In this document: positions 2,657 through 63,546 of the stretch, piece after piece
Layout: every line of letters begins with the position of its first letter
Numbering within the stretch: position 1 is the stretch's first letter
Assembly (NCBI RefSeq): GCF_000277125.1
Contig: NC_016946.1
Location: 3,968,001 to 4,032,000 of the forward strand
Direction of reading: 5' to 3'
DNA length: 64,000 nucleotides
Origin: Mycobacterium intracellulare ATCC 13950
GTDB lineage: Bacteria > Actinomycetota > Actinomycetes > Mycobacteriales > Mycobacteriaceae
Made by a program: the position numbers and the translations under genes
The notes under the pieces: model-generated
Seen by the model: the letters and a program-made list of their open reading frames with translations, nothing else
What the model was told of the DNA's origin: nothing
Databases searched by the model: none

Positions 2657-3483
2657 TGCCGCCACCCCAGCCCGCCGGCTTCCCGCGCCTGGTGGTAGCG
2701 GTCGGAATCGAAGAACTCGAAAACCCAGTTGTCGCCCTGGATTTCGAGGTGCGGCTGCACCGGCACGATCTGGCGCTCCACTGCCAGCACCTCGGCGACG
2801 GTCCGCCCGGCCAGCGAGTCCAGCTGCGTCCACGTCGGCGGCAGCAAAAAGCTGCGTCCGGCCGCGAAGTCCTCGATCGCCGCCTCCGGCGTCGTCCAGC
2901 CCGCCCGGTCGGATTCGGTGTTCTCGCCGTCGGCGCGCTGCCCCTTCGGCAGGGCGCCCACGAAGAAATAGGTGTCGTAGCGCCGCGTGCGCTCGGCCTC
3001 CGGGGTGACCCAGTTGGCCCACGGCCGCAACAGGTCCGAGCGCAGCTCCAGGTTCTCCCGCCGCAGGAAATCCGCGAACGACAACGTCCCGTCGGCCAGC
3101 GCCCGGCGGGCGTCGCCGTACACCGACGCGTCGCCAACGATACTGTCCGGCGCCGAACGGCCCCGGCCCGCCGGCCCCGCGAACAGCACCCCCGATTCCT
3201 CGAACGTCTCGCGGGCCGCGGCGCAGACCAGCGCCTCGGCCAGGTCGGGTTCGATGCCGAAGCGCTGCGCCCACCACTCCGGCGGCGGTCCGGCCCAGGC
3301 GATGTCGGCGTTGCGGTCGCGGTCGTCGACGCCGCCTCCGGGGAACACCATCGTCCCGGCCGCGAACTCCATCTTGGCGTGCCGCCGCATCAGGAAGACG
3401 CCCAGTCCCGGACCCGTGTCTCGGACCAGCATCACGGTCGCCGCCGGCCTGGGGACCAGCGGGGCTTCCTCGGGTGACGTCAT
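2653..3483 (-). CDS. NUDIX hydrolase (Rv3040c-like)
   Basis: A 276-residue protein with [12 protein letters not shown] near residues 45-56 and a NUDIX box core [11 protein letters not shown] further along, giving the REx2EExG residues that bind metal. A longer-than-usual insertion separates the FPGG strand from the box, as in the mammalian NUDT19-like group, which acts on CoA or related diphosphates. That substrate is inference only. The ATG overlaps the TGA of the upstream ABC ATPase by 4 nt, and its own stop overlaps the echA17 start, so it sits in the middle of a coupled operon. Confidence 0.87.
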
Positions 3484-4346
3484 AGTTGCCTCCGGTGGGC
3501 TGCGCGGGTGCGGACTCGCCGCGCGAAGTAGCGCCCGTCGACGACGTCGAGGGCGATCGCTTGGCCGAACGCGGTGGACAGATTCTCCGCGGTCAGCACG
3601 TCGGTGAGCAATCCCGCGGCCACCACCCGACCTTCCGCGAGCAGCATGCAGTGACTGAACCCGGGCGGGATCTCCTCGACGTGGTGCGTGACCAGCACCA
3701 GGGCGGGGGCGTCGGGGTCGGCGGCCAGGTCGGCCAGCCGCGCCACCAGTTCCTCGCGGCCGCCCAGGTCCAGGCCGGCGGCGGGTTCGTCGAGCAGCAG
3801 CAGTTCGGGGTCGGTCATTAGCGCGCGGGCAATCAGCACCCGCTTGCGCTCGCCCTCCGACAGTGTGCCGTAGGTGCGGTCCGCCAGATGCTCCGCGCCC
3901 AGGCTCTCCAGCATGTCGATCGCCCGGCGGTAGTCGACGTCTTCGTAGCGCTCGCGCCAGCGGCCCAGGACCGCGTAGCCGGCCGAGACCACGAGATCGC
4001 GCACCACCTCGTCGCCGGGGACGCGCTGCGCCAACGCCGAGGAACTGAGGCCGATGCGGGAACGCAACTCCGTCACGTCGACCCGGCCCAGCCGCTCACC
4101 GAGCACGAAAGCCACGCCGGACGAGGGATGTTCGGCGGCCGCGGCGATCCGCAGCAGCGAGGTTTTGCCCGCCCCGTTGGGCCCGACGATGACCCAGCGC
4201 TCGTCGAGTTCGACCGCCCAATCCAACGGCCCGACCAGGACGTTGCCGCCGCGCTGCAGCGCCACCTCGCGCAATTCGATCAGCAGATCGGGGTCGGCTG
4301 CCTCGCTTCCGTTTTCGGGCACCCGACCATGGTGCCGTATGCCCAT
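3480..4346 (-). CDS. ABC transporter ATP-binding protein (Rv3041c-like)
   Basis: A 288-residue ATPase with Walker A GPNGAGKT (about residues 55-62), signature LSEGERKR, Walker [14 protein letters not shown] and switch His in LVTHHVEE. All catalytic motifs are intact. No permease gene is adjacent, so its partner and substrate cannot be told. It could equally be a soluble ABC protein. It is the first gene of the compact minus-strand run that continues through NUDIX and echA17; serB2 ends 18 nt upstream of its start. Confidence 0.9.
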
Positions 4347-4364
4347 CGGATCGACACAAGCAAC

Positions 4365-5624
<1,260 letters not shown>

Positions 5625-49531: not shown

Positions 49532-49975
49532 GTGGGCCCTCGTTCAGTCGGGCGGACTGTCCTGGCGCGAATCTGGATGCCGTTGGTCGCCGTCGTCGCG
49601 GTCGGTGTGGGCCTGCTGTGCATGTACAAGGTGCACCAGTTCTCCGAGCCGGAGCCGGTCATCACCGTCAACGGTCCGCAGGCCCCCGAGCAGTTCAACC
49701 CCAAACGGATCACCTATGAGGTGTTCGGCTCCCCCGGGCAGGGCGGCAAGCTCGTCTACATCGACATCGAGGGCCACCCGCATCAGGTTGATTTCACGAC
49801 CCTGCCGTGGACCCACACGGAGACCACCACACTCACGGTGGCGTCCGGCAGCATTTCGGTGCACGTTCATGGCGGCCAGGTCGGCTGCCGGATGCTGGTC
49901 AATGGCGTAGTCCGCGACGAACAGTCGGATGACCATCAGGACGCCGACGTCCAGTGCAGGGTGAAATCGGCATGA
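49532..49975 (+). CDS. MmpS family membrane protein
   Basis: A 147-residue accessory protein of the MmpL transporters: helix WMPLVAVVAVGVGLLCMYKVHQF, then a beta domain, ITYEVFGSPGQGGKLVYIDIEG, TTTLTVASGSISVHVHGGQ, GCRMLVNGVVRDEQSDD. GTG at 49532 has AGAGGTG 6 nt upstream. Its stop overlaps the mmpL start (ATGA). Which of the MmpS subgroups it belongs to cannot be told by eye. Confidence 0.9.
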   Translation: MGPRSVGRTVLARIWMPLVAVVAVGVGLLCMYKVHQFSEPEPVITVNGPQAPEQFNPKRITYEVFGSPGQGGKLVYIDIEGHPHQVDFTTLPWTHTETTTLTVASGSISVHVHGGQVGCRMLVNGVVRDEQSDDHQDADVQCRVKSA

Positions 49976-52800
49976 GCGAGCATCGCTCCGATGAGGCCGG
50001 GGTCAAGCGCCCGTTCATCCCCAGGATGGTCCGCGCTTTCGCGATACCGATCATCTTCTTCTGGGGCCTGCTCGCGGTCACGACGAATACCTTTATGCCC
50101 CAAGTGGAACGGGTCGCAGAGGAACTCGCCGGGCCCATGGTCCCGCACTACGCCCCCTCCCAGCGGGCGCTGTTGCACATCGGCGAAAAGTTTCAGGAAT
50201 CGAACTCGACCAACCTGACCATGGTGGTCTTCGAGGCGAACCGGCAACTGGGAGACCAGGATCACCGGTACTACGACGACCTGATGCGCCGCCTCCAAAA
50301 CGACACCAAACAGGTGCAATACGTGATGGATTTGTGGGGCAAGCCTTTCACGGCGGCGGGGGCGCAAAGCGTCGACGGCAAGTGCACCTACGTGCTGCTG
50401 CGTCTCGCCGGCGATATCGGCCAGATTCAGGCGAACCAGTCGGTGGACGCCGTCCGCGACATCATCAAGAAGGACACCCCGCCACCCGGGCTCAAGGTCT
50501 ATGTCAGCGGCGCGGCCCCGCTGGCCTCCGACACCCTCGCCATCGCCAACGCCAGCCTGAACAACGTCACCATCGTCACGATCATCCTCATCGTCGTGAT
50601 GCTGCTGCTCGTGTACCGCACGCCCTCAACCCTGTTGGTGCCCTTGCTCGGCGTCCTCATCGAGATGCTCGTCGCCAAGGGCGTCGTCTCGACCCTGGGG
50701 CACTACGGGTACATCGAACTCTCGTCGTTCGCGGTGAACATCGTCATCGCGCTGACCCTGGGCGCGGGCACGGATTACGGCATATTCCTGATGGGCCGAT
50801 ACCACGAGGCGCGGCAGGCCGGCGAAAGCCGGGAGGACAGTTTCTACATCGCCTACAAGGGCGTGGCACCCATCATCATCGGCTCCGGCCTGACGATCGC
50901 CGGCGCGTGCTACTGCTTGACGTTTGCGCGCCTGAACTACTTCCACACCATGGGGCCGGCCGTCGCGATCACGATGCTGTTCACCATCGCCGCGGCGATG
51001 ACGCTGGGCCCGGCGGTGTTGACCGTCGGCAGCCTGTTCGGGATGTTCGACCCGAGAACCAGCACCAAGGGACTGTTGTACCGGCGCATCGGGGCGAGCG
51101 TGGTGCGCTGGCCGGTGCCGATCCTGGCGGCCAGCTCCGCGGTCGTCATGATCGGGGCGATCTTCGTCCCCACCTACCGGCAGAACTACGACGACCGGCA
51201 GTACCAGCCGGCCGGAGCGCCCGCCAACCTGGGTTTCCAGGCGGCGGATCGGCACTTCCCCAAGAGCAAGCTGTTCTCCGAGATGCTGATGGTCGAAACC
51301 GACCACGACATGCGCAATTCGGCCGACTTCATCTCGCTGGACCGGGTCGCCAAGGCCCTGATCCGGTTGCACGGCGTGGCGATGGTGCAGGGCATGACCA
51401 GGCCCCTGGGCCGGGCGCTCGAGCACGCCAGCATCCCGTACCTGTTCACCACGCAGGGCAGCGGCAACGGCCAACAACTCCCGTTCAACAGGGAGCAGAA
51501 CTCCAACACCGACGCGCAGGCCGAGATCCAGGCGCACTCCGTCGCGGTGTTGCGAAAGGAGATCGGCTTTTTCCAAAAGGTGTCCGACGAATTGCACCAG
51601 ACGGTGCTCACCGTGGAGGACCTGCAACGGGTCAGCGAAGAGATGAACGAGGAAGTCTCGAATCTCGACGACTTCTTCCGCCCGATCAAGAGCTACTTCT
51701 ATTGGGAGAAGCACTGTTTCGACATCCCCATCTGCTGGGCGTTCCGATCCTTGTGGGACACCATCGACCACATCGACCACCTGGCCGAGGACATCAACCA
51801 CGCCAGAATCTCCCTCACGGAGGTGGACAAGGCGTTCCCGCAGATCATCGCCCAACTGAAAGCCACCGCCGACGACACCGAGGCGCTGCAGTTGAAGTTG
51901 GTCAACAGTTACGGGTCGGCGGATCTACAGTCCATCCAGACCGACCAGACGTTCGACGACCTGATCAACGTGGGCAACGACTTCGACAGGTCCCGCAGCG
52001 ACGACTACTTCTACATCCCGCACGAGGGTTTCGACAACGAGGACGTCAAGACGGGCATGAAGTTGATGATGTCGCCCGACGGCAAGGCGGCCCGCTTCAT
52101 CGTCACCCACGAGGGCGACGCGATGGGACCCGAAGGGGTGGAGCACGTCGAACAGTTCCCCGACGCGATCAAGACGATCCTCAAGGAGACCTCCCTTGCC
52201 GGCGCCCGGGTCTACATCGGCGGTTCGGGGTCCAACGACAAGGACATCAAGCAATACGCGATGTCGGACCTGCTGATCGCGGCGATCGCGGCGTTTGTGC
52301 TGATTTTCTTGATCATGATGTTCATCACACGAAGTCTGGTGGCGGCGTTGGTGATTCCCGGAACGGTGGCCTTCTCCTACGCCGGCGCGTTCGGCCTGTC
52401 CATACTTTTCTGGCAGCACCTCGTGGGCCTGCATTTGCACTGGCTGGTCCTGCCGTTGACGTTCATCATCCTGGTGGCCGTCGGGTCGGACTACAACCTG
52501 CTGCTGATCAACAGGGTCAAAGAGGAGTTGCACGGCGGCATCCACACCGGTCTCATCCGCGCGCTCGGCAGCACCGGGGGCGTGGTCACATCCGCGGGCC
52601 TGGTGTTCGCGTTCACCATGCTGGCCATGCTCACCAGCGATCTGCGGACCATCGGTCAGGTGGGCTCCACCGTGTGCATCGGCCTGCTGCTCGACACCCT
52701 GATCGTGCGTTCGTTCGTCGTGCCGTGCATCCTGCGCATCCTCGGGCCGTGGTTCTGGTGGCCGACGCTGGTGCGTTCCCGCCCGCTGCCCCAGCGCTGA
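49972..52800 (+). CDS. MmpL family RND transporter
   Basis: A 942-residue inner-membrane exporter with two RND halves of about six helices. The proton-relay Asp-Tyr pairs are intact in LGAGTDYGIFLMGRYHEA and AVGSDYNLLLINRVKEE. The long periplasmic second loop has a coiled segment (LHQTVLTVEDLQRVSEEMNEE) with Cys-containing HCFDIPICWAF, as in MmpL4/5. With the MmpS partner it probably exports a lipid or siderophore. No lipid synthesis genes are adjacent, so the cargo is open. Confidence 0.94.
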   Translation: MSEHRSDEAGVKRPFIPRMVRAFAIPIIFFWGLLAVTTNTFMPQVERVAEELAGPMVPHYAPSQRALLHIGEKFQESNSTNLTMVVFEANRQLGDQDHRYYDDLMRRLQNDTKQVQYVMDLWGKPFTAAGAQSVDGKCTYVLLRLAGDIGQIQANQSVDAVRDIIKKDTPPPGLKVYVSGAAPLASDTLAIANASLNNVTIVTIILIVVMLLLVYRTPSTLLVPLLGVLIEMLVAKGVVSTLGHYGYIELSSFAVNIVIALTLGAGTDYGIFLMGRYHEARQAGESREDSFYIAYKGVAPIIIGSGLTIAGACYCLTFARLNYFHTMGPAVAITMLFTIAAAMTLGPAVLTVGSLFGMFDPRTSTKGLLYRRIGASVVRWPVPILAASSAVVMIGAIFVPTYRQNYDDRQYQPAGAPANLGFQAADRHFPKSKLFSEMLMVETDHDMRNSADFISLDRVAKALIRLHGVAMVQGMTRPLGRALEHASIPYLFTTQGSGNGQQLPFNREQNSNTDAQAEIQAHSVAVLRKEIGFFQKVSDELHQTVLTVEDLQRVSEEMNEEVSNLDDFFRPIKSYFYWEKHCFDIPICWAFRSLWDTIDHIDHLAEDINHARISLTEVDKAFPQIIAQLKATADDTEALQLKLVNSYGSADLQSIQTDQTFDDLINVGNDFDRSRSDDYFYIPHEGFDNEDVKTGMKLMMSPDGKAARFIVTHEGDAMGPEGVEHVEQFPDAIKTILKETSLAGARVYIGGSGSNDKDIKQYAMSDLLIAAIAAFVLIFLIMMFITRSLVAALVIPGTVAFSYAGAFGLSILFWQHLVGLHLHWLVLPLTFIILVAVGSDYNLLLINRVKEELHGGIHTGLIRALGSTGGVVTSAGLVFAFTMLAMLTSDLRTIGQVGSTVCIGLLLDTLIVRSFVVPCILRILGPWFWWPTLVRSRPLPQR

Positions 52801-52844
52801 TCCCGCAATCCCACCGCCACCCCGACACGGAAGGCCCAAATCGC

Positions 52845-53672
52845 ATGAGCGCCAACGACACTCCCCTGGCCGGTCGAGTCGCCTTCGTCACCGGCGCCGC
52901 GCGTGGGCAGGGCCGCTCCCATTGCGTCCGGTTGGCGCGGGCCGGCGCCGACATCGTCGCCATCGACGCGTGCGCCCCGGTGGCGGCGCACAACGGCTAT
53001 CCGGCCTCGACACGCGAGGACCTTGCCGAGACGACGCGCCTGGTGGAAAGCGAAGGCCGCAAGATGCTGGCCGACCAAGTCGATGTCCGGGACGCCGCGG
53101 GGCAACAGCGGGTGGTCGACGACGCGATCACCCAATTCGGCCGCCTCGACATCGTCGTCGCCAACGCCGGCGTGCTGAACTGGGGCCGACTCTGGGAGAT
53201 CTCGGCGCAGCAATGGCAGGACGTCCTTGACGTCAACCTGACCGGTGTGTGGAACACCATCAAAGCCACTGTGCCCGCGATGATTCAGGCCGGCAATGGG
53301 GGCTCGATCATCACCATCAGCTCGGCCGCGGGCGTGAAGGCCGTACCGGGGTGTGGCCACTACTGCGCCAGCAAGTTCGGTGTGGTCGGCATGACCAACT
53401 CCCTGGCGGTCGAGCTCGGCGAGTACGGCATCCGGGTGAACTCGGTGCACCCGTATGGCACCGACACCCCGATGGGCAACGACCCCTCGATGTGGCAGCT
53501 CTTCGCCGACCACGAGACCTACATTCACAGCTTCTCCCCCGGCGCGCTGCCCACCGATTCACTCGCCGACCCGGACCTGGTCTCCGACATCGTGCTGTGG
53601 CTCGCCGGCGACGCGTCCTCGCTCGTCACCGCCGCGCAGATCCCCGCCGACAAGGGTTACCTGAAAATCTGA
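52845..53672 (+). CDS. Mycofactocin-coupled SDR
   Basis: A 275-residue SDR of the group with non-exchangeable NAD and mycofactocin as acceptor. Signs are VAFVTGAARGQGRSHCVRLA, the insertion AIDACAPVAAHNGYPASTRE-DLAET after the second strand, VVANAGVLNW, ISSAAGVKAVPGCGHYCASK and HPYGTDTPM. The insert shields the cofactor. It oxidises an alcohol; the substrate may belong to the neighbouring Rieske cluster or to mmpL-linked lipid (inference). ATG at 52845. Confidence 0.88.
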   Translation: MSANDTPLAGRVAFVTGAARGQGRSHCVRLARAGADIVAIDACAPVAAHNGYPASTREDLAETTRLVESEGRKMLADQVDVRDAAGQQRVVDDAITQFGRLDIVVANAGVLNWGRLWEISAQQWQDVLDVNLTGVWNTIKATVPAMIQAGNGGSIITISSAAGVKAVPGCGHYCASKFGVVGMTNSLAVELGEYGIRVNSVHPYGTDTPMGNDPSMWQLFADHETYIHSFSPGALPTDSLADPDLVSDIVLWLAGDASSLVTAAQIPADKGYLKI

Positions 53673-53674
53673 TC

Positions 53675-54229
53675 TCAGTGGTGCGCCTCGTCTTGGACGC
53701 CGAAAGTGTTGACGGCCAAGGCCAGCAGCAGGTAGCCACCGATGGTGAAGATCAGATCCATGCATTGCTGCTCGGTGAACAAGCGGCACAGGTCATCCCA
53801 GGTCGTCTCGGCGACCGTGCTGTCGGCCGTGAGATCGTCGACGGCGGCGATCACGGCCTGGTCGGTCTCATCGGCGCAGCGGCCGGTCCGAATGTCGTCG
53901 ATCTCGGATTCGGACAGCCCCGCTCGCGCGGCGATGGGGAGGTGGTGCGACCACAGATAGCCGCACTTGCTCCGGTGCACCACGCGAAGCAGCGCGACTT
54001 CTCGCACCCGCGGCGACAGCGTCGATCGGGTCAGCAGGTACGCGTTGAACGGCAGGTAGGCCGCGGTCAGGTCGGGATGGCGGACCAGGGTGGACAAAAC
54101 ATTGCCCGCGCCAACGGGATTCGCCCGCTCGGTGGGGATCAGGGATGCCAGCGATTCCCGGGCGCGCTCGTCCCATTCCCCGGCGGGCAGCGGTGTCAGG
54201 CGCAGCGGGTGATGACCGTCCGTGGTCAT
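53675..54229 (-). CDS. Carboxymuconolactone decarboxylase / AhpD-like protein
   Basis: A 184-residue helical protein: AYLLTRSTLSPRVREVALLR, VVHRSKCGYLWSHHLPIAARAG, FTIGGYLLLALAVNTFG. The Cys-x2-x-x-His motif of AhpD is reduced to KCGYLWSHH, with one Cys, so a peroxidase role is doubtful; a lyase or hydratase role is possible. ATG overlaps the TauD stop (ATGA). Last gene of the reductase-led minus-strand cluster. Confidence 0.85.
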   Translation of the reverse strand: MTTDGHHPLRLTPLPAGEWDERARESLASLIPTERANPVGAGNVLSTLVRHPDLTAAYLPFNAYLLTRSTLSPRVREVALLRVVHRSKCGYLWSHHLPIAARAGLSESEIDDIRTGRCADETDQAVIAAVDDLTADSTVAETTWDDLCRLFTEQQCMDLIFTIGGYLLLALAVNTFGVQDEAHH

Positions 54230-55068
54230 TCGATCGGCTCGTCGCCGAGCACGGTGGTGCGCAGCATTTCGCGTTGGGAGTCCGGGTCGTACGGGGCCGC
54301 ACGGTGCAGCACCCCGCGGTTGTCCCAGATGACGGTGTCCCCGACCGACCAGCTGTGGCTGTAGACCTTCTCGGGCGTCGTCGCGCGCGCCAGGAGCTCG
54401 TCCAAAAGGGCGCGGCCCTCGTCGAGCTCCATGCCGACGACGTAGTCCGCGGAGGCGCCCAGCACGAGTGATTTGCGGCCGCTGCGGTGCGTCCACACCA
54501 GGGGATGCTCATGCGTGCGCCGAGATCGCCAGCGCTGCACCTGTTCCGGGGAGGGATCGGGATACACGCGGCGCTGGGACGCTTCCAGCGAGTGCACCAC
54601 GCGCAACGTGCCGAACCGCTGCTTCTCCTCATCGGTCAGGTCGTCGTAGGCGGCGTAGCTGTTGGCGAACTCGGTTTCCCCGCCCCATTCGGCCACCCGC
54701 ACCGCCGAGAGCACCGTGGCCTTCTGGGGGCATTCGTCGCCCAGCGGCGTGCAGCCATCGATGTGCCAGTCGAACGTGGCCTTCAGGTAGGCGGCCGAGG
54801 CGTTCTTGGACTTGTCCAGCGTGATCGGGTAGATCCCGGCCACCGGGTGATGGCCGTCCGAGGAGTGATCGACCTCGCCGAGGAGGCGGCAGAAGCCGAC
54901 CTGGGCCACAGGATCGAGGTGCAGGCCGCGGAAGACCAGAACGCCGTTGTCTTCCAACGCATCCAACACCGCCGCGCCGACCGAGTCGTCGGCCAGCTCG
55001 GTGGGCCCCAGGCCCGCGACCTCGGCGCCGACGGACTCGGTGAGTTTGGTGATGGTGAGCAGACCCAT
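54226..55068 (-). CDS. TauD/TfdA family Fe(II)/2-oxoglutarate dioxygenase
   Basis: A 280-residue dioxygenase. Iron ligands are His and Asp in FDWHIDGCTP and His in WDNRGVLHRA; Arg for 2-oxoglutarate in REMLRTTVLGD. Members cut sulfonates, ethers or hydroxylate aliphatic acids. It may act on a product of the Rieske enzymes. 27 nt downstream of the small Rieske-linked gene; ribosome site GGAAAGGAGC before ATG at 55068. Confidence 0.9.
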   Translation of the reverse strand: MGLLTITKLTESVGAEVAGLGPTELADDSVGAAVLDALEDNGVLVFRGLHLDPVAQVGFCRLLGEVDHSSDGHHPVAGIYPITLDKSKNASAAYLKATFDWHIDGCTPLGDECPQKATVLSAVRVAEWGGETEFANSYAAYDDLTDEEKQRFGTLRVVHSLEASQRRVYPDPSPEQVQRWRSRRTHEHPLVWTHRSGRKSLVLGASADYVVGMELDEGRALLDELLARATTPEKVYSHSWSVGDTVIWDNRGVLHRAAPYDPDSQREMLRTTVLGDEPIE

Positions 55069-55095
55069 GGTCGCTCCTTTCCGGAGAGGGATGAA

Positions 55096-55434
55096 TCAGG
55101 GCACCGGCCAGCCGGTCCGGGTCATGACCGCGTCGGCGGCGTCGACCGGGGCCGGTTGATGCATGATCTCCACCGCCATGGCGACCATGACCAGCGAATA
55201 GATCATGTGCAACAGGTTGAGCGCATCGTCGGGCAGGTTGTCGAGCGGAAACTTGTCGCAGTAGTCGATGGCCTCTTCGAGGCGCGGAAAAAACGCGTTG
55301 TAGAAGTCGAGTAGCTGCGGCATCGACGCGCCGACCCGGGCGTTCCAGCGCTCGGTTTCGGTTGCCAGGCACCAGGTTTGGGCGTAGTCCTCCAGCTCGG
55401 CGAATGCGCTGGGCAACATGGGATGCATGGTCAC
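55096..55434 (-). CDS. Small helical protein B, partner of Rieske oxygenase B
   Basis: A 112-residue protein of no family known to me. A paralogue (60336-60671) stands in the same place after the other Rieske gene. Shared features: MLPxxFAxLE near the start, WCLATETER, RxxxSM, FYNAFFPRLEEAIDYCDKF, then LDNLPDDALNLLHMIYSLVM. It is acidic and mostly helical. It is not the NTF2-like beta subunit of ring-hydroxylating oxygenases. GTG at 55434 overlaps the Rieske stop (GTGA), like the paralogue. Confidence 0.82.
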   Translation of the reverse strand: MTMHPMLPSAFAELEDYAQTWCLATETERWNARVGASMPQLLDFYNAFFPRLEEAIDYCDKFPLDNLPDDALNLLHMIYSLVMVAMAVEIMHQPAPVDAADAVMTRTGWPVP

Positions 55435-56693
55435 ACCCCCACCGGATCCTGTTCGCGGCGATAGGCTTCGACCCAATCGACGACGACCTTGTGCAGGTGG
55501 CGTACCAAGATCTCTTGGTCGTTGAGGGGAAAGTCGTCGACGATGCCGTATTCCAGCGCCGCCTGGGTCCCGCCGAGCATTCCGGCGTCTTGTAGCGCAA
55601 ACTCTTTGAGCACCACCGCGGCGACCTCGTGCTCGATGCGCTCGCGCACGGTGCTCGCCGGGTGGAAGTAGGTGTACGCCTCGAACCGGTGCGTGTTGTG
55701 CGAGGTGGGCCAGTACCGGTACAGCAGATACCATCCGCCGTAGATCAAAATCTCGATGTTCGGGAAGATCTGGAAATTGCTGATCCCCCAGGGCTCGATC
55801 CCACCAGGGTTGAGCCCGGCCGGCAGCTCGCCGATGTCCGGGGTCTGCCACGGCCCCACCAGCCCGCTGCGGGTGGCGCGCTCGATCGGGTACATGTATT
55901 CCGGCGGCAACAGCCAGCGGCGCCGCCCGGCGGTGGAGACCAGCCGGTGCGGGCCGTCGAGTTGGAAGTGCCCGCAGGTGAATCCGGCGTTGGGGTCGCG
56001 CACCTCCGCCGGCACCTGCTGCGAGTGCAGCGACGGCACGTGGTAGTACTCCTGGAAGGCGTCGGCGAAGATCTTCCAGTTGCTGTTGTTGTGGGCCACC
56101 CAGTCGTAGCGTTCGGTCAGCTTCCCGAACGGATAGTCGTCCAGCCCGGTGATCATCGGGCCGAGGAACTCGCGCAGGCTCTGACGCGGCTCGGTGTCGA
56201 AGTTGATGAAGACGAAGCCGTTCCACACGTCGCAGTGCACCGGACGCAGCCCATACTTCGCGGGATCGAGGTCGAAGAACTCCGATTCCTGCTGCACGAA
56301 CTTCAGCGCGCCCTGCAGGTCGTAGCGCCAGCCGTGGTACTTGCAGGTGAACTGCCGGCAGGTGCCGCGGGTCTCCTCGCCGGGATAGTCGTTCCACACC
56401 AACTTGTTTCCGCGATGCCGGCACACGTTGTAGAAGGCGCGGATTCGCTCGTCTTTGCCCTTGACCACGATCACCGACGCCCCGACGACTTCGATCTCTT
56501 TGGTCAGGTAGCTGCCGACGCGGGGCAATTCCTCCACCCGGGCGACGTTGAGCCACGCCCGCTTGAAGATCGCCTCCCGCTCGAGTTCGTAGAACTCGCG
56601 GGACGTCGAATCCCTGAAAGAGACGGGGCCCGTGCCCAATTCGGGGTAGTGCTCGGTCCAGGAGCCTTCCGGCGGCCGGCCTGATCTCGTCAT
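55431..56693 (-). CDS. Rieske non-haem iron oxygenase alpha subunit B
   Basis: A 420-residue oxygenase. The [2Fe-2S] ligands are Cys91-x-His93 (CRHRGN) and Cys117-x2-His120 (CKYHGW), with a longer spacing than usual (23 residues instead of about 15-17). The catalytic iron site is in NWKIFADAFQEYYHVPSLH (His-x4-His). It has the 2-His and acid bridge Glu in QEYYH. The protein is about 60% like oxygenase A by eye. It needs electrons from the adjacent ferredoxin reductase gene product. ATG at 56693, 13 nt after the SDR stop. Confidence 0.93.
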   Translation of the reverse strand: MTRSGRPPEGSWTEHYPELGTGPVSFRDSTSREFYELEREAIFKRAWLNVARVEELPRVGSYLTKEIEVVGASVIVVKGKDERIRAFYNVCRHRGNKLVWNDYPGEETRGTCRQFTCKYHGWRYDLQGALKFVQQESEFFDLDPAKYGLRPVHCDVWNGFVFINFDTEPRQSLREFLGPMITGLDDYPFGKLTERYDWVAHNNSNWKIFADAFQEYYHVPSLHSQQVPAEVRDPNAGFTCGHFQLDGPHRLVSTAGRRRWLLPPEYMYPIERATRSGLVGPWQTPDIGELPAGLNPGGIEPWGISNFQIFPNIEILIYGGWYLLYRYWPTSHNTHRFEAYTYFHPASTVRERIEHEVAAVVLKEFALQDAGMLGGTQAALEYGIVDDFPLNDQEILVRHLHKVVVDWVEAYRREQDPVGV

Positions 56694-56706
56694 CGCATCC
56701 TCACTA

Positions 56707-57474
56707 TCACATCACCGATCCGCCATTGACGCCCAAGACCTGACCGGTGATGTACCTCGCTTCTTCCGAACACAAAAAGCCCACCGCGGCCGCGATGTCG
56801 GCCCCGGTGCCCAGGTAGCCCACCGGGATATTGCTGGCGATCTGCTCGTTGGAGGGCAGGTACCCGGCGGCCTGGCCCTGGTGCTGCATCGGGGTCTCGA
56901 TGCCCGAGGGCGGGATGTTGTTGACGGTGATCCCGTTCGCCGCGTATTCGCGGGCCAGCGACTTGGTCAACGTGATCACCGCGCCTTTGGACGCCGCGTA
57001 GTGGGCGGCGAACGGGGATCCGCGCTGGGCGCTCGACGACGAGATCATCACGATTCTCCCCCAGTTCGCCTCCACCATGTCCGGGAGCGCGACCTGGCAG
57101 CAATGAAACGTGCCGGTCAGGTTGACATCGATGATCCGCGACCACGATTCGGCGGTGATGTCCAAGAAGGGCGAAAACCCGAACATCCCGGCGCTGGTCA
57201 CCAGGACCGTCACCGGTCCCAGTTCGCTGCGCACCTTCGCGAACGCCTGCTCGACGGCGGACCGATCGGTGACGTCGGCGCCCACCGCTAGCGCGGTCGC
57301 ACCTTCGGCGCGCAGGCCGTCGGTGACGCGTTGCGCCGCATGCTCGTTGACATCGAGGACGGCCACCTTGAGGCCGCGCCGGCCCAATTCGTGACACGTC
57401 GCCTCACCCATGCCTGAGGCGCCGCCGGTCACCACCGCCACCCTGGTCATCGCATCCGCCGCCCTATCGCTCAT
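56707..57474 (-). CDS. Short-chain dehydrogenase/reductase
   Basis: A 255-residue SDR: VAVVTGGASGMGEATCHEL, TSAGMFGFSPF, MISSSSAQRGSPFAAHYAASK (Ser, Tyr, Lys), ITGQVLGVNGGSVM. The type oxidises diols or hydroxyacyl substrates; in this cluster it may act on the dihydrodiol or alcohol made by a Rieske enzyme. ATG at 57474 overlaps the reductase stop (ATGA), which places it in the operon. Confidence 0.9.
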   Translation of the reverse strand: MSDRAADAMTRVAVVTGGASGMGEATCHELGRRGLKVAVLDVNEHAAQRVTDGLRAEGATALAVGADVTDRSAVEQAFAKVRSELGPVTVLVTSAGMFGFSPFLDITAESWSRIIDVNLTGTFHCCQVALPDMVEANWGRIVMISSSSAQRGSPFAAHYAASKGAVITLTKSLAREYAANGITVNNIPPSGIETPMQHQGQAAGYLPSNEQIASNIPVGYLGTGADIAAAVGFLCSEEARYITGQVLGVNGGSVM

Positions 57475-58565
57475 TCGTAGACCACCCGCACCGTGGGACT
57501 GGTCGGCACGGCCTGACACGTCAGCACCCAGCCGTCGTCGACCTCATCCTGGTCGAGCGCATCGTTGTTGATCATCCGGGCGCTACCCTGCGTCAGGCGC
57601 CCCATACACGTTCCACACGAACCGATTTCACACGAGGACGGCGCCCGCAGCCCCGCCATGCGGGCTGTCTGCAACAGCGTGTTGCCCGCGTAGTACGGCG
57701 CGGTGGTCGTCGATCCGTCCAGCACGATGGTGACCTCGTCGGTGACCGCGTCGGTCTCCGGCGGCGCCGCCGCGGCCACGTCGGCCACGTCGAAATGCTC
57801 GATGTGCAGGCGGCCGGTGGGCACGCCCGCCGCGCCCAGGGCGGTTCGCACCGTATCCATGAACTCGTTCGGCCCGCAGACGTAGAAGTCGGCGCCGTCG
57901 GTGTTCTCGACGAACGCGGCGATGTCCGCCTGGGTGGCGAAGCCGCGTTGGTCGTCGAGATGGTGGTGCAGGACGAAACGGTCCGCGTGGCGCTTTTCCA
58001 GCGTTTTGAGGGCCTCGTCGAAGATCACCGCGTCCCGGTTTCGGTTGGCGTAGAACAACCGCGCGCCGCGCGTGCCGGACACCAGCGCGGTGCGCAACAG
58101 CGAAAACACCGGCGTGATGCCGCTTCCGCCGGCGAACGCGACCAGGTTCCGGCCGGTGTCGTTCAAGACGAAGCGTCCCTGCGGTGGAAGGGCGTAGAGC
58201 AGGTCGCCGGGTGCGGCGGTGTCGTTGAGCCAGTTGGACACCGCGCCGCCGCGGTCGCGTTTGACCGTGATGCGCAGGTCTTCACCGACCGCGGGGGATG
58301 ACGACATCGAGTAGGAGCGCCGGTACTCGCGCCCGTCGACGCGGACCAGCAGCGTCAGGAATTGCCCGGCTTGGTAGCCGAACCGTGCCGCGCTGCCCCG
58401 GGGAACATCGAGAACGATCGACACGGCGTCGCGGGTTTCGGGTATCACGTGCTTGACCCGAAGCGGCACAAAGCCTTCCGGGGCATCGGCCATGTCGACA
58501 GCGCCCGCTGCGCCGCCGGTCTCGGTCGCCGGACCGGCGTTGGCTGTGCTGTGGTGATCGCCCAT
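57471..58565 (-). CDS. Ferredoxin reductase with FAD, NAD(P) and plant-type [2Fe-2S] domains
   Basis: A 364-residue electron-transfer protein in the order of KshB/phenol hydroxylase reductases. FAD: EYRRSYSMSSSP (RxYS). NAD: FAGGSGITPVFSLLR and FYVCGPNEFMD. The C-terminal ferredoxin has CEIGSCGTC and a distal Cys in VLTCQAVP, the four cluster ligands. It can supply both Rieske oxygenases. First gene of the cluster; the shared 16-bp motif lies 9 nt before its ATG, with ACGGAG between. Confidence 0.94.
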   Translation of the reverse strand: MGDHHSTANAGPATETGGAAGAVDMADAPEGFVPLRVKHVIPETRDAVSIVLDVPRGSAARFGYQAGQFLTLLVRVDGREYRRSYSMSSSPAVGEDLRITVKRDRGGAVSNWLNDTAAPGDLLYALPPQGRFVLNDTGRNLVAFAGGSGITPVFSLLRTALVSGTRGARLFYANRNRDAVIFDEALKTLEKRHADRFVLHHHLDDQRGFATQADIAAFVENTDGADFYVCGPNEFMDTVRTALGAAGVPTGRLHIEHFDVADVAAAAPPETDAVTDEVTIVLDGSTTTAPYYAGNTLLQTARMAGLRAPSSCEIGSCGTCMGRLTQGSARMINNDALDQDEVDDGWVLTCQAVPTSPTVRVVYE

Positions 58566-58574
58566 CTCCGTCAG

Positions 58575-58590
58575 AGTATCAACTACTTGC
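58575..58590. promoter_or_regulatory. Shared 16-bp element before the ferredoxin reductase gene
   Basis: On the minus strand GCAAGTAGTTGATACT ends 9 nt before the reductase ATG. The same 16 bases in the same orientation stand before the aldehyde dehydrogenase gene (62068-62083). GACCAATA / CACCAATA also precedes both, directly in one and 20 bp further off in the other. It may be a MarR operator, or a common promoter with GATACT as -10. Confidence 0.7.
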
Positions 58591-58621
58591 GATTAGTCTC
58601 AAGTACTAGATATTGGTCACG

Positions 58622-59074
58622 TCATCCGTCGACGTGATCGTCGAACAGCTCATGGCCGGTGCCCTTTTCGACCACGCGGCCCAGCAATTCGCGCAGGGTC
58701 CGCTGCTCTTCCTCGGTCAGCACGCCGAACACCTCCTGGTGTGCGGCGATCGCGTCACTGACCACCGTTTCGGCGACTTTGCGGCCCTCGCCGGTCAGGT
58801 AGGCCCGCAGGATGCGCGCGTGCTGGGGGTCCTGCTTCCTTTCCACCAGGGCGCGGCGTTCCAACGCGGTGAGCGCGAGCTGGACGCCTTGCGGGCTGAT
58901 CAGCAGCCGCCGCGCCAATTCGGCGCCGGACAACCCGGGTTCGTTGGCCAATTGGCGCAGCACACCGATCTGGGCGGTGCTCACGCCGTGTTCGCGCATC
59001 GCCTCGTTGATGGTGGTCAGGGAGTAATAGAAGGCCTGCTTGAGCAGCCACAGGATGTTGTCGGTGAGTTCCAT
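58622..59074 (-). CDS. MarR family regulator
   Basis: A 150-residue winged-helix regulator: STAQIGVLRQLANEPGLSGA, ELARRLLISPQGVQLALTAL (recognition helix), ERRALVERKQDPQHARILRAYLT (wing). It is the last gene of the oxygenase A operon; GGAGG is 6 nt before its ATG. MarR proteins often bind phenolic ligands, which fits ring-hydroxylating neighbours. The probable target is the shared 16-bp element. Confidence 0.9.
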   Translation of the reverse strand: MELTDNILWLLKQAFYYSLTTINEAMREHGVSTAQIGVLRQLANEPGLSGAELARRLLISPQGVQLALTALERRALVERKQDPQHARILRAYLTGEGRKVAETVVSDAIAAHQEVFGVLTEEEQRTLRELLGRVVEKGTGHELFDDHVDG

Positions 59075-59085
59075 ACCTGCCTCCG

Positions 59086-60339
59086 TCAGGCCGCGGGGCT
59101 TTTGTAGATCTGTCCGTTCTTCATGACAAAACGGACTTCGAGCGTCTTGGCGATGTCGTCGAACGGGTCTCCCGGCACAGCGATGATGTCCGCGAGATAG
59201 CCGGGCGCCAGCCTGCCCAACTCGTCGTCGGCGTCGATCAGCTCGGCGGCCACCACCGTGGCCGCCCGGATTGCCTGCGCGGGAGTCATGCCCCGCTGCA
59301 CCAGCGCACCCAGTTCTTTGGCGTTTTGGCCGTGCGGGATGGCCGGCGCGTCGGTGCCGCACGCAATCCGGACGCCCGCGTCGATCGCCTTGGGCAGCAT
59401 GGCCTTTGCGCGCGGAAACACCTCCAGCGCCTTCTTGCGCAGCTCCGGCGCGATGCGGTCGATGGCCATGGCCTCCGTCAGATACGTTGTCGAGACCAGG
59501 AAGGTGCCGTGGTCGACCATCATCTGGATCGTTTCGTCACTGGCCAAAAAGCCGTGTTCGATGCAGTCGATGCCCGCGCGGATGCAGGCCTGGACCGCGG
59601 TGTCCCCGACGGCGTGCGCGGCCACGCGGACTCCGGCCCGGTGGGCTTCGTCGGCGATCGCGGCGAACTCGGCGTCGGAGTACTGCTGCGCGCCGGGCGC
59701 GGTGCTGTGCGACATCACCCCGCCCGAGGCCGACACCTTGATCAGCTTGGCGCCGTGCCGGATTTGGTAACGCACGCAGGCGATCACGTCGGGTACGCCG
59801 TTGGCGATGCCCTCGGCCACCGATAGCGGCATGACCCCGGGCGCCAACCGCTGAAAGACCGTCGGGTCCAGGTGCCCGCCGTACGGGGTGACGGCATGGC
59901 CGGCGGGATAGATGCGCGGCCCGACGTGCCACCCCTGGTCGATTGCGCGCTGCAGCGCCACGTCGAGCAGATACCCGCCGGTCTTGACCATCAGCCCGAG
60001 ATTGCGCACCGTGGTGAACCCGGCCTCCAGGGTGGTGCGCGCGTTGACCGCCCCGCGCAACGTGCGATAGGCGGGGTCGTCCTGCACGCCATGCATGGGC
60101 GACGGCAGGCCCTCCGGCCCGCCGGGTCCGCCGATGAGCAGGTTGAGCTCCATGTCCATCAGGCCCGGCAGTAACGTCACGTCGCCGAGCTCGACGATGG
60201 TGGCCGAATCCGGCAGCGGCCCTTCGGGATTGATCGCGGAGATGCGTTCGCCGTCGACCACGATCACCGCCGGAGCGTGGATCCGGCCCGTGACGACGTC
60301 GGCCCACCGCGCCGCCCGCAGGACGGTCGACTCGGTCAT
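59086..60339 (-). CDS. Amidohydrolase-superfamily protein lacking the HxH metal motif
   Basis: A 417-residue protein with the imidazolonepropionase/Sgx9260-like fold. The place of the usual PGLIDxHxH is PGLMDMELNL, so the two His are Glu64 and Asn66. The other ligand positions are intact: Lys202 (LIKVSASGGV), His243 (AAHAVGD), His263 (IEHGFL), Asp331 (CGTDAP). It may use one metal in a shifted site. ATG overlaps the stop of the small gene A (ATGA). Reaction unknown. Confidence 0.87.
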   Translation of the reverse strand: MTESTVLRAARWADVVTGRIHAPAVIVVDGERISAINPEGPLPDSATIVELGDVTLLPGLMDMELNLLIGGPGGPEGLPSPMHGVQDDPAYRTLRGAVNARTTLEAGFTTVRNLGLMVKTGGYLLDVALQRAIDQGWHVGPRIYPAGHAVTPYGGHLDPTVFQRLAPGVMPLSVAEGIANGVPDVIACVRYQIRHGAKLIKVSASGGVMSHSTAPGAQQYSDAEFAAIADEAHRAGVRVAAHAVGDTAVQACIRAGIDCIEHGFLASDETIQMMVDHGTFLVSTTYLTEAMAIDRIAPELRKKALEVFPRAKAMLPKAIDAGVRIACGTDAPAIPHGQNAKELGALVQRGMTPAQAIRAATVVAAELIDADDELGRLAPGYLADIIAVPGDPFDDIAKTLEVRFVMKNGQIYKSPAA

Positions 60340-60671
60340 GGAACCGGCTCGGACACGCAGTCCAGGGTCGAAGCACCCGAGTCGGGGACGCGGGGTTGCT
60401 TCCAGCACTCCACCGGGAACGACACCATGATCATGGAGTAGAGCAGGTGCATCAGATTCAGAACGTCGTCCGGCAGGTCGTCGAGAGAGAACTTGTCGCA
60501 GAACGACAATGCCTCCTCGGCCCGCGGGGTGATCGCGTCGTAGAAGGCCTTCATTTCGACCATGGAACTGGCCAGCCTCTTGGCGTAACGTTCGGGTTCG
60601 CTCGCCAGGCACCAGTCGGCGAACGGTTCGAGGTCGGCGAACTCGGCGGGCAGCATCGGCATCTCGTTCAC
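60336..60671 (-). CDS. Small helical protein A, partner of Rieske oxygenase A
   Basis: A 111-residue paralogue of the protein at 55096-55434. It reads MPMLPAEFADLEPFADWCLA, ERYAKRLASSM, PRAEEALSFCDKFSLDDLPD and DVLNLMHLLYSMIM. GTG at 60671 overlaps the Rieske stop (GTGA), and its stop overlaps the amidohydrolase start. The conserved CDKFxLDxLPDD may be the functional core. Family not recognised. Confidence 0.82.
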   Translation of the reverse strand: MNEMPMLPAEFADLEPFADWCLASEPERYAKRLASSMVEMKAFYDAITPRAEEALSFCDKFSLDDLPDDVLNLMHLLYSMIMVSFPVECWKQPRVPDSGASTLDCVSEPVP

Positions 60672-61936
60672 ACCCCCGCGCTCGTCGTCCGGCGATAGTC
60701 ATCGATCCAGGCGGCGGTCTCCTTGTGGAGGTGACGGATCAGGACCTCCTGGTCGCACAGCAAGAACTCGTCGATCACCTGGGATTCGAGCATCGTCTGG
60801 GTCGCCTCCAGCGTGTTGGCGTCCTGCAGCCCGTATTCCTTGAACGACACCGCCGCCAGTTCCTGAGCGACGCGCTCACGCGGGGTGCGCGGCGCCGGGA
60901 AGTACAGCGTGCCCTCGAAGAGGTGACTGTTATACGACGTCGGCCAGTAGTGGTAGGTCAGATACCAGCCCTGGCCCCAGAACAGGATGACGAAGTTGGG
61001 GAACAGCTGGAACGAATCCAGCCCCCACGGATCACATTTCGCCGGGTTGAGCCCCTCGGGCATCGGGCCCAGATCGGGCTTGTCCCATGGGCCGAACAGC
61101 CCGCTCTGGCAGATGTCCTCCATCGGCTTGCGCATCTCGTCGGCCATTTCCCAGGCGCGCACCCCCGAGGTGCTGACCAGCCGGTGCGGCCCGTCCAGCC
61201 GGTAGTGCGGGGCCTCAAAACCCGCCTCGGCGGCCGCCTTCGAGTACGCGGTCGGTGACTGGTTCGCGTGCAACACGGGCGCGTGATAGAACTCCTGGAA
61301 CGCGTCCATGTAGAGCTTCCAGTTCGCCTTGACCTCGGAGCGATAGCACCAGCGCGAGACCATCTTGTCGAAGGGATAACCTTCCAGCCCGGTGATCATG
61401 GGTCCGAGGAACTCTCGCAGCGACTGCTCGGGCTTCTTGGCGAAGTTGACGAAGACGAACCCTTCCCACACGTCGCAGTGCACCGGCACCAGCCCGTAGC
61501 GGCCCTTGTCGAGGTCGAAGAACTCCTCCTCCTGCTGCACGAAGGTGAGGTTGCCGTCCAGGTCGTAGCGCCAGCCGTGGTACTTGCAGGTGAACTGCCG
61601 GCACACCCCGGCCGTTTCTTCCTGCGGCATGTCGTTCCACACCAGCTTGTTGCCGCGATGCCGGCACACGTTGTGATAAGCCTTGATGTCGCCAGACGTG
61701 GTGCGCACCAAGATGATTGAGGTATTGACAACCTTCAGCTCGCGGGTGAGGTAACTGCCTTTGCGCGGAAGCTGTTCAACGCGACCGACATTGAGCCAGG
61801 CACGCTTGAAGATGGCGTCACGTTCCAACTCATAGACCTCGGGGCTGATCGAGTCCCGGTAGGACACCGGCTCGGTGCCCAATTCCGGGTAATGCTGGGT
61901 CCAGCTCCCCTCCGGCGGTTTAGGAAATCGAGCCAT
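60668..61936 (-). CDS. Rieske non-haem iron oxygenase alpha subunit A
   Basis: A 422-residue oxygenase. Cluster ligands Cys91, His93, Cys117, His120, with the same 23-residue spacing as oxygenase B. Iron ligands His218 and His223 in DAFQEFYHAPVLH; the acid before His is Glu215 instead of the usual Asp. Substrate-pocket parts differ from B (SPTAYSKAAAEAGFE insert; GQGWYLTYHYWPTS), so the two probably have different substrates. First gene of its operon; ATG at 61936 with AAGGAGCGATC upstream. Confidence 0.93.
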   Translation of the reverse strand: MARFPKPPEGSWTQHYPELGTEPVSYRDSISPEVYELERDAIFKRAWLNVGRVEQLPRKGSYLTRELKVVNTSIILVRTTSGDIKAYHNVCRHRGNKLVWNDMPQEETAGVCRQFTCKYHGWRYDLDGNLTFVQQEEEFFDLDKGRYGLVPVHCDVWEGFVFVNFAKKPEQSLREFLGPMITGLEGYPFDKMVSRWCYRSEVKANWKLYMDAFQEFYHAPVLHANQSPTAYSKAAAEAGFEAPHYRLDGPHRLVSTSGVRAWEMADEMRKPMEDICQSGLFGPWDKPDLGPMPEGLNPAKCDPWGLDSFQLFPNFVILFWGQGWYLTYHYWPTSYNSHLFEGTLYFPAPRTPRERVAQELAAVSFKEYGLQDANTLEATQTMLESQVIDEFLLCDQEVLIRHLHKETAAWIDDYRRTTSAGV

Positions 61937-62100
61937 GATCGCTCCTTAGCAGTCCAATCTCAGCGAAACTGCAGCAATGCCTGCGCGAAAACAACCACCC
62001 GCGCACCGGTTTCACCGATCCCTGAGGGCTCCGTCACGGCCGACGGTATATCCTCGTGTCACCAATAGCAAGTAGTTGATACTGGCCCCGGGAGGCGCGG
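61937..62100. promoter_or_regulatory. Divergent promoter region, Rieske A / aldehyde dehydrogenase
   Basis: A 164-bp gap with the 16-bp element near its right end. On the left only the ribosome site of oxygenase A is clear. The element seems too far (130 bp) from the oxygenase A start to control it alone, though binding of MarR could affect both. Confidence 0.5.
62068..62083. promoter_or_regulatory. Shared 16-bp element before the aldehyde dehydrogenase gene
   Basis: GCAAGTAGTTGATACT on the plus strand, 17 nt before the ATG at 62101 with GGGAGGCG between. Identical to the sequence before the ferredoxin reductase (58575-58590, minus strand) and preceded by CACCAATA. Confidence 0.7.
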
Positions 62101-63546
62101 ATGGACCATCACCCCGCAGTGCAGATCGCCGGAAGCGATGGGGCGCGGCCGCAGGCCGGCGTCTTGCACGTCATCTCTCCGCACACCGAGGAACCGATCG
62201 CCGAGGTCAATGCGGCGGGATCCGACGACGTCGACGCGGCGGTGGCGGCGGCGCGCGCGGCCTTCGGGCCCTGGGGCCGCAGCGAGCCGGCGGAACGGGT
62301 CGCCGCGATCCGGCGCCTGGCCGACATCTACGACGGACGCCGCGCGGAGATGGCCACCACGATCACGGCCGAGATCGGCGCCCCGATCAGCTTCGCCCAG
62401 CGGGCCCAGGTCGGCCTGCCGGCATTCATGATGCGCGCGTTCTGCGACCTGGCCGAACGGCACCCGTGGCAGGAGACCAGGCCCGGGTTCTTCGGAAGCG
62501 ACGTGCACGTCCGCAAGGAACCCGTCGGCGTCGTCGCGGCGATCGTGCCCTGGAACATGCCCCAGTTCCTCATCGTCACCAAACTGGTGCCCGCGCTGTT
62601 GGCCGGCTGCGCCGTCGTGCTCAAACCCGCCCCCGAAAGCCCGTTGGACGCGCTGCTTTTAGGCGAGATGATCGCCGAAGCCGGCCTGCCGCCGGGCGTG
62701 GTCAGCATCCTGCCGGGCGACGGTGCGCTGGGCGCCTACCTCGTCGCCCACCCGGGCGTCGACAAAGTGTCGTTCACCGGCTCCACCGCGGCGGGGCGGG
62801 CGGTGGCCGCATCGTGTGCGGTCAACCTCACCAAAGTCAGCCTGGAACTCGGCGGCAAGTCCGCCGCCCTGGTTCTCGACGACGCATCGCCGGACAAGGT
62901 GGCCGCCGGGGTGCGATCCGCGAGCCTGTCCAACAGCGGCCAGATCTGCAATGCGCTCACCCGGGTCCTGGTGCCGCAGGGGCGCCACGACGAGTACGTC
63001 GACGCGCTCGCCGCCGAGATGGCCGGCCTTCGCGTCGGCGATCCCAACGATCCCGACACCCAGCTCGGTCCGTTGGTGTCCCGGCGCCAGCAGCAACGCG
63101 TTCGCGACTACATCGAGATCGGCCAGAACGAGGGGGCGCGCGTCGTCATCGGCGGCACCGACATGCCCGACGGACTCGACCGCGGCTGGTATGTCCGGCC
63201 CACCCTGTTCGCGGCGGCCGACAATTCGATGCGCATCGCCCGGGAGGAGATCTTTGGGCCCGTCATCACCGTCATCCCCTACCGCGATGACGAGGAGGCG
63301 CTGGCGATCGCCAACGATTCCGATTACGGCCTGGCCGGCTCGGTGTGGAGCGACGACAGCGACCGTGCGCTGGCGATGGCCACCCGCATCCACACCGGGA
63401 CCGTCGGCGTCAACCAGGGCTACACGATGGATCCGTTCGCGCCCTTCGGGGGCGTCAAGGCCAGCGGCTACGGCCGCGAACTCGGGCCCGAAGGCCTCGA
63501 CGGTTACCTGGAAACGAAGTCGATCGCCATCGCCGCGGAATCCTAG
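62101..63546 (+). CDS. NAD-dependent aldehyde dehydrogenase
   Basis: A 481-residue enzyme: VVAAIVPWNMPQFLIVTK, KPAPESPLDA, VSFTGSTAAGRAVA, catalytic Glu in VSLELGGKSA, catalytic Cys in NSGQICNALTRVL, EIFGPVITVIPY. All key residues are intact. Probably oxidises an aldehyde from the pathway encoded on the other strand. ATG at 62101. Confidence 0.94.
   Translation: MDHHPAVQIAGSDGARPQAGVLHVISPHTEEPIAEVNAAGSDDVDAAVAAARAAFGPWGRSEPAERVAAIRRLADIYDGRRAEMATTITAEIGAPISFAQRAQVGLPAFMMRAFCDLAERHPWQETRPGFFGSDVHVRKEPVGVVAAIVPWNMPQFLIVTKLVPALLAGCAVVLKPAPESPLDALLLGEMIAEAGLPPGVVSILPGDGALGAYLVAHPGVDKVSFTGSTAAGRAVAASCAVNLTKVSLELGGKSAALVLDDASPDKVAAGVRSASLSNSGQICNALTRVLVPQGRHDEYVDALAAEMAGLRVGDPNDPDTQLGPLVSRRQQQRVRDYIEIGQNEGARVVIGGTDMPDGLDRGWYVRPTLFAAADNSMRIAREEIFGPVITVIPYRDDEEALAIANDSDYGLAGSVWSDDSDRALAMATRIHTGTVGVNQGYTMDPFAPFGGVKASGYGRELGPEGLDGYLETKSIAIAAES

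Follow-up and report, generated by a model that had tools for sequence, protein, structure and literature searches.

A stretch of 64,000 nucleotides from the genome of Mycobacterium intracellulare ATCC 13950 (a single contig of 5,402,402 bases), here called the window, contains a cluster in which two genes for Rieske oxygenase alpha subunits are each followed by a gene for a small protein of about 110 residues. The small proteins are found in Actinomycetota and in Pseudomonadota, and their genes lie beside a Rieske gene almost wherever they occur. On the basis of these sequences, we hypothesise that they form a new family of accessory proteins associated with a set of Rieske oxygenases, situated here in an otherwise recognisable oxidative regulon. 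Work on Rieske oxygenases, engineering included, treats them as systems of alpha subunit, beta subunit, ferredoxin and reductase; the near-constant neighbourhood suggests that the small protein is an unrecognised working part of this widely studied enzyme class. The two pairs of the cluster are as follows.

60668..61936, minus strand: ROa1, Rieske oxygenase alpha subunit of module 1 (422 residues; Pfam PF00355 and PF00848; bridging Glu)
60336..60671, minus strand: small1, 111-residue partner of ROa1 (GTGA overlap with ROa1; no Pfam or NCBIfam family)
55431..56693, minus strand: ROa2, Rieske oxygenase alpha subunit of module 2 (420 residues; PF00355 and PF00848)
55096..55434, minus strand: small2, 112-residue partner of ROa2 (GTGA overlap with ROa2; AlphaFold model)

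ROa1 and ROa2 are 61% identical, and small1 and small2 are paralogues with 48% identity. An ATG two codons downstream is an alternative start for small2. A previous reading made from the letters alone (the sequence-only reading) had described two Rieske genes, each overlapped at a GTGA by a paralogous small gene, in a cluster linked to a MarR regulator, and all of these genes are indeed present.

Pairing of the small gene with a Rieske gene

The source genome has 26 Rieske-domain matches, and all four of its small genes lie directly behind a Rieske gene. A sample of 61 genomes from the family of the source organism (31 genera, Rhodococcus included) gave a similar result. A profile of the small protein finds 29 genes in 10 of these genomes, a profile of the alpha subunit (E ≤ 1e-60) likewise yields 29, all within those 10 genomes, and the two sets adjoin one to one in both directions. 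Because the pair recurs in 29 cases out of 29, the association is not a matter of chance. A sparse sample of the phylum shows the small protein in 7 of 296 genomes. In another family (that of genome G204) the profile found it in none of 121 genomes, the candidates from the first look being scored in part; the same profile recovers 7 of 7 known carriers. A monooxygenase search in that family matched 19 of the 121 genomes and was set aside.

A wider set of 111 small genes (loci L010 to L120) was then considered, which contains many near-copies. L019, L024 and L029 were removed as duplicates, so that small2 of the window is not counted, and 80 of the loci are the best 80 of at least 544 matches to the mycobacterial sequence used first. 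An intact alpha gene adjoins 107 of the 111, with the small gene behind it in 105 cases and before it in two. Two more small genes are found where a contig begins, each next to part of an alpha gene, and one is beside a frameshifted alpha gene. Of the best 80 loci, 77 have a CMD-like gene ahead of the Rieske gene. The pair also travels on plasmids: a Rieske gene is adjacent in 12 of the 13 plasmid records that carry the small protein, the hosts of these pairs being Sphingomonas, Novosphingobium, Acinetobacter, Cupriavidus, Rhodococcus, Burkholderia, Sphingobium, Paroceanicella, Variovorax and Azospirillum.

The reverse check used six more plasmid Rieske genes, 29–33% identical to ROa2, from records without a small-protein match by tblastn. 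In three of them (L175, L176 and L180) the Rieske gene is immediately followed by the gene of a divergent small protein (E 1e-27 to 1e-29, small set), and tblastn therefore missed some partners. At L176, on a plasmid of Sphingomonas sp. NBWT7 (2974-4566), the Rieske gene is annotated as two pieces. Distances between alpha subunits correlate with those between the small proteins (r = 0.94 for 40 pairs and 0.88 for the 29 actinobacterial pairs; none of 1000 permutations was as high), as would also be expected from linkage alone. Rhodococcus sp. 105337 carries two tandem Rieske–small pairs (L110:8740-14430) with identical alpha proteins.

Some observations weigh against so close a partnership. 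The sequence-only reading had named a small protein without a Rieske gene as the finding that would count against it, and there is one true orphan among the 111, on a plasmid of Cupriavidus necator C39 (L119:8980-9336). No Rieske gene was found within 9 kb of it or elsewhere on the 1.19-Mb plasmid record, in a search that covered this record only and had no positive control. The orphan is followed by a reading frame without a Pfam match. The other three genes of the reverse check (L177, L178 and L179), which are 30–32% identical to ROa2 and in this respect like some partnered alphas, have no small gene within 3 kb on either side, and two of the three carry the same bridging Glu; unpartnered Rieske relatives therefore exist at that distance. 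Against a CntA-like reading of the oxygenases is the Cys-x-x-Cys pair that CntA has beside the iron (Cys206/Cys209): no Cys occurs in the partnered-alpha motifs listed.

The oxygenases and the small protein family

The alpha subunits contain the Rieske motif CxH...CxxH (CRHRG...CKYH at 91-120) and match the catalytic domain PF00848. A pair of His residues and a later Asp are invariant in the alignments and form, by homology, a 2-His-1-carboxylate iron site. The bridging position is Glu rather than Asp in 106 of 107 partnered alphas. This Glu is also present in four of the eight other Rieske proteins of the genome with a readable motif, and it is therefore not specific. The nearest NCBIfam model is GbcA (NF058607), with 128.5 and 116.1 bits against a cut-off of 670. 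CntA, of the carnitine monooxygenase CntA/CntB, is the nearest structural relative and shares the fold and the bridging Glu, although identity to enzymes of the CntA/GbcA type, among them the glycine betaine monooxygenase GbcA/GbcB, is only about 23%. We know of no small partner of CntA. The dioxygenases IadDE, HcaEF, NagGH and BphA have the Rieske and catalytic domains in common with the cluster alphas. The Cys-x-x-Cys pair near the iron is described for some group V quaternary-ammonium oxygenases, CntA among them.

Since CntA is itself an alpha3 enzyme, the lack of a beta subunit noted by the sequence-only reading is what would be expected of its relatives, and it is no anomaly. In a tree containing 40 partnered Rieske proteins and 21 others from this genome, the partnered proteins fall on one side of a branch with weak support (80/36), and a single origin is possible. 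The relatives of ROa1 and ROa2 fall into one group (100/99), and the two modules of the cluster therefore probably arose by duplication.

The small protein is nameless in Pfam and NCBIfam, in spite of well over a thousand protein clusters. Neither small1 nor small2 gives a match, and 61 diverse members gave no Pfam match and a single NCBIfam match (one member, E 0.005), which we take to be chance. The top match in a sequence search of the PDB was a designed protein (E 0.015), and a profile reached E 0.13 at best; neither is convincing. Protein searches retained 1265 of 1267 candidates as relatives of small2, and 1581 of 1581 for a member from G023 that is close to Streptomyces proteins; the two lists may overlap, and the best 120 of each were inspected. 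UniRef names several of the small proteins 'Xaa-Pro dipeptidase' (P0006, P0055, P0168 and others) and one an M13 metallopeptidase (P0041), probably by carry-over from a neighbouring gene. No open-access paper on the cluster or the small protein was found. The suggestion of the sequence-only reading that the pathway is undescribed holds to the extent that no matching pathway was found in the open-access literature and no curated family covers the small protein, but the latter belongs to a large family and is not specific to one pathway.

AlphaFold predicts small2 to be a four-helix bundle (mean pLDDT 85.7, pTM 0.74). Its tail is disordered in the model, with pLDDT below 50 at residues 100-106. 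A fold search of the PDB with this model found no standout, and nothing beyond a common arrangement. P8, W21, R29, R33, L74 and E89 are invariant in all 61 members, F11 is kept in 60 and P110, in the tail, in 56.

The helical model bears on the idea that the small protein stands in for the missing beta subunit. There is no NTF2-like gene in the cluster of the window, which would suit this idea; however, CntA-like enzymes need no beta subunit, and the small gene occurs together with SnoaL/NTF2-like genes at L112, L115, L116, L118 and in a third module of the genome (L127), so that it is no simple beta replacement. We regard the idea as very improbable, and a degenerate beta subunit was rejected as the main explanation. 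A second alternative is a dedicated assembly factor, which would load the iron or the Rieske cluster, or help the alpha subunit to fold, and then leave. The same one-to-one pairing would be expected of it, as would a helical fold without a clear PDB match, and W21, R29, R33 and E89 fit a binding surface. It seems rather unlikely all the same, having no Cys or His among its strongly conserved positions, and we know of no Rieske oxygenase of the CntA kind that needs a dedicated chaperone. The most far-reaching reading, to which we give slightly less than an even chance, is that the small protein is an undescribed type of Rieske subunit, distinct from ferredoxin, reductase and NTF2-like beta subunit, and indispensable to this branch in two phyla.

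Single chains containing both parts might be thought to bear on contact between them. A search gave 22 matches, of which 16 were inspected. Out-of-frame stretches are present in 12, a point against their use; P0251, P0254, P0256 and P0259 read through cleanly, and of these P0251 and P0254 begin late. Since one indel at the gene overlap would produce such chains, fusions were rejected as proof of interaction. P0259 was modelled with 4 single-chain sequences, 23 alphas and 40 small proteins in the alignment (mean pLDDT 82.5, pTM 0.80). In this model the tail of the small protein, disordered in the protein by itself, forms a strand at 536-540. The model has no inter-domain error estimate and is therefore only a hint that the small protein contacts the alpha subunit. 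If the branch does need a helical partner, an alpha subunit expressed alone would be inactive, and this could be the reason that relatives with no annotation beyond 'aromatic ring-hydroxylating dioxygenase subunit alpha' have not been characterised.

Gene content and regulation of the cluster

The remaining genes and the operator-like sites are listed here.

62101..63546, plus strand: aldehyde dehydrogenase (ALDH), divergent from the rest (PF00171)
59086..60339, minus strand: AH, amidohydrolase-superfamily protein with DMELN for the usual DxHxH (PF01979; ATGA overlap with small1)
58622..59074, minus strand: MarR-family regulator, beginning with ATG (possible alternative start: TTG at 59107; PF12802/PF01047)
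57471..58565, minus strand: PaaE/GbcB-type reductase with FAD and C-terminal [2Fe-2S] domains (PF00970, PF00175, PF00111)
56707..57474, minus strand: short-chain dehydrogenase (SDR; PF13561; ATGA overlap with the reductase)
54226..55068, minus strand: TauD-family 2-oxoglutarate dioxygenase (PF02668)
53675..54229, minus strand: CMD-like protein, 184 residues (PF02627; ATGA overlap with TauD)
62063..62081, minus strand: operator-like site A, TATCAACTACTTGCTATTG, between ALDH and ROa1 (0 mismatches, by construction of the pattern)
58577..58595, plus strand: operator-like site B, between MarR and the reductase (1 mismatch)
58597-58615: degenerate operator-like copy (3 mismatches)

The order of transcription on the minus strand is ROa1, small1, AH, MarR, reductase, SDR, ROa2, small2, TauD and CMD-like. 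In agreement with the sequence-only reading, Pfam finds no beta-subunit family (NTF2-like), ring-cleavage dioxygenase or CoA ligase among these ten proteins. The reductase is the only one in the cluster. It has the domain order of PaaE but falls below the cut-off for this family (TIGR02160, 248.7 bits against 420.8) and for NF058606. The Xaa-Pro dipeptidase model NF051886 reaches 362.8 bits among the cluster proteins, against a cut-off of 500.

The cluster combines two types of module, one Rieske–small–amidohydrolase and one Rieske–small–TauD. Among the 29 pairs from the 61 family genomes, the gene directly after the pair is an amidohydrolase in 17, TauD in 10 and neither in two. Of the amidohydrolase matches in these genomes, 17 of 19 adjoin a pair, the other two being more distant in sequence and having HVH, whereas only 10 of 25 TauD matches do so.

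The amidohydrolase is the second oddity. AH still matches PF01979, but the HxH metal motif on strand 1 is replaced by ExN. The replacement is general: DME[VLI]N is present at the DxHxH position in 86 of 89 relatives (loci from L031 on; three could not be read by the pattern), and all 13 of the 17 pair-linked proteins that the pattern could read have DMExN. The nearest PDB chains are 8ihq, which we take to be ADH3, and Cc2672. 8ihq aligns over nearly the full length and keeps HVH where AH has ExN. E. coli NagA likewise lacks HxH, and according to PMC6016474 it has one metal and a QxN motif, so hydrolysis by AH is still possible. AH-type proteins with ExN are possibly mononuclear, or possibly not hydrolases.

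The arrangement proposed by the sequence-only reading, two Rieske–small modules beside one MarR and one reductase, recurs in other species: the order of the cluster is kept at L121 and L122, whereas L123 lacks the reductase and L124 is rearranged and has no MarR. ALDH adjoins ROa1 at L122 and L123 but not at L121, and a CMD-like gene beside TauD was not found at L121 to L123.

The species comparison revealed a conserved block upstream of ROa1, giving the pattern TATCAACTACTTGNNATTG. With up to three mismatches, this pattern has three sites in the window, against 0.01 in shuffled sequences. Site A is present upstream of ROa1 at L121 (one mismatch), L122 and L123, from which the pattern was built, and a site like B precedes the reductase at L121 and L122. 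L123 lacks the second site together with the reductase, and L124 lacks both sites together with MarR; none was found in the short stretch L138. A third genomic site, at 4965969 with two mismatches, lies close to a gene that matches EXPERA weakly; it seems to be due to chance and was discarded. A repeat search found no inverted repeat in the gap between ALDH and ROa1. From this distribution we infer that MarR may bind sites A and B. If so, the two-site regulon could reveal the substrate through the inducer.

Beyond the cluster, an MmpL-like transporter (identified from its reading frame) and a further SDR at 49954-53672 converge on it. Rfam has no match at the cluster, and scans for promoters and terminators gave counts about equal to those in shuffled sequences.

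Proposed pathway and possible substrates

On the basis of these observations, we hypothesise that the cluster is a single MarR-controlled catabolic regulon with two paralogous Rieske modules, in which two oxidations share one reductase and the small protein is an accessory subunit of each oxygenase. We consider this reading about evenly balanced between right and wrong. Each module would be a CntA-like, alpha-only oxygenase, in which the Rieske cluster of one subunit feeds the iron of the next through the Glu. The four-helix protein would serve as a dedicated subunit, perhaps binding the alpha by its C-terminal tail, and the PaaE/GbcB-type reductase would serve both oxygenases. Module 1 would hydroxylate the substrate, perhaps next to nitrogen with C–N cleavage or amide formation, and pass its product to the amidohydrolase-fold enzyme, which lacks the HxH ligands and is probably mononuclear. 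Module 2 would oxidise again and deliver its product to the TauD-type dioxygenase, while SDR and ALDH would oxidise the released alcohols and aldehydes. Binding of the substrate or an intermediate would cause MarR to leave its two operators. The genes, their pairing, the motifs and the conserved operator-like sites are observed, whereas formation of a complex, binding by MarR, the sequence of steps and the kind of substrate are inferred.

A hydrophobic compound had been suggested as the substrate, but nitrogen-containing compounds are suggested no less strongly by the genes around related pairs. Of the first ten plasmid loci inspected, eight are annotated, and four of these eight have neighbours that hint at nitrogen compounds. 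On Acinetobacter pYH12138-1 (L112) the pair is accompanied by formamidase, SnoaL, indole/styrene monooxygenase, flavin reductase, SDR, ferredoxin and reductase genes. A formamidase is near the pair in Novosphingobium, 2,5-dihydroxypyridine dioxygenase and a member of the isochorismatase family in Variovorax WDL1, and members of the xanthine dehydrogenase family and an asparaginase in Paroceanicella.

Several points weigh against this picture. The other four annotated loci have no such neighbours: in Rhodococcus the pair is beside cupin, AMP-binding and fumarylacetoacetate-hydrolase genes, read as gentisate-type, in Sphingomonas it is near CoA-transferase and SDR genes, and the neighbours at L114 and L117 are not telling. 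All of these loci belong to distant relatives. Module 3 of the source genome (L127, 757602-760398) is surrounded by CMD-like, SnoaL_4, acyl-CoA dehydrogenase, Amidohydro_2, hydratase, thiolase, TetR and P450 genes, which fit an alicyclic or isoprenoid acid better. Against a reductase shared by the two oxidations is L123, which keeps the cluster without this gene.

It could also be that the cluster is an ordinary operon for the degradation of aromatics, steroids or terpenoids, in which the small protein has an independent minor role such as ligand binding. The β-oxidation genes and P450 around module 3 agree with this, as do the three less similar Rieske proteins of the reverse check, which lack a neighbouring small gene, and the weak best match of MarR to HpaR-type regulators, which is below the NCBIfam cut-off. 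We nevertheless consider it unlikely, since the cluster has no ring-cleavage or CoA-ligase gene, and an independent role would leave unexplained a linkage to Rieske genes that holds in two phyla with a single exception in 111.

The hints from gene neighbourhoods, weak as they are, suggest that the substrates of the regulon are perhaps nitrogen compounds. Two published clusters can be compared with it as distant relatives. The Rhodococcus ska cluster is likened to it by description, and the accessible part of the paper does not mention a small protein (PMC13101512). The same is true of the excerpt describing the indole/skatole cluster of Acinetobacter piscicola p38 (PMC11434297), where the likeness is one of gene spacing and not of sequence: the intervals between the Rieske, monooxygenase, flavin reductase and ferredoxin genes at L112 equal those between p38 genes 1684, 1687, 1688 and 1690. 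The same excerpt lists both indole and skatole as inducers of gene1684 (Rieske alpha), and skatole as an inducer of gene1687 (monooxygenase) and gene1690 (ferredoxin).

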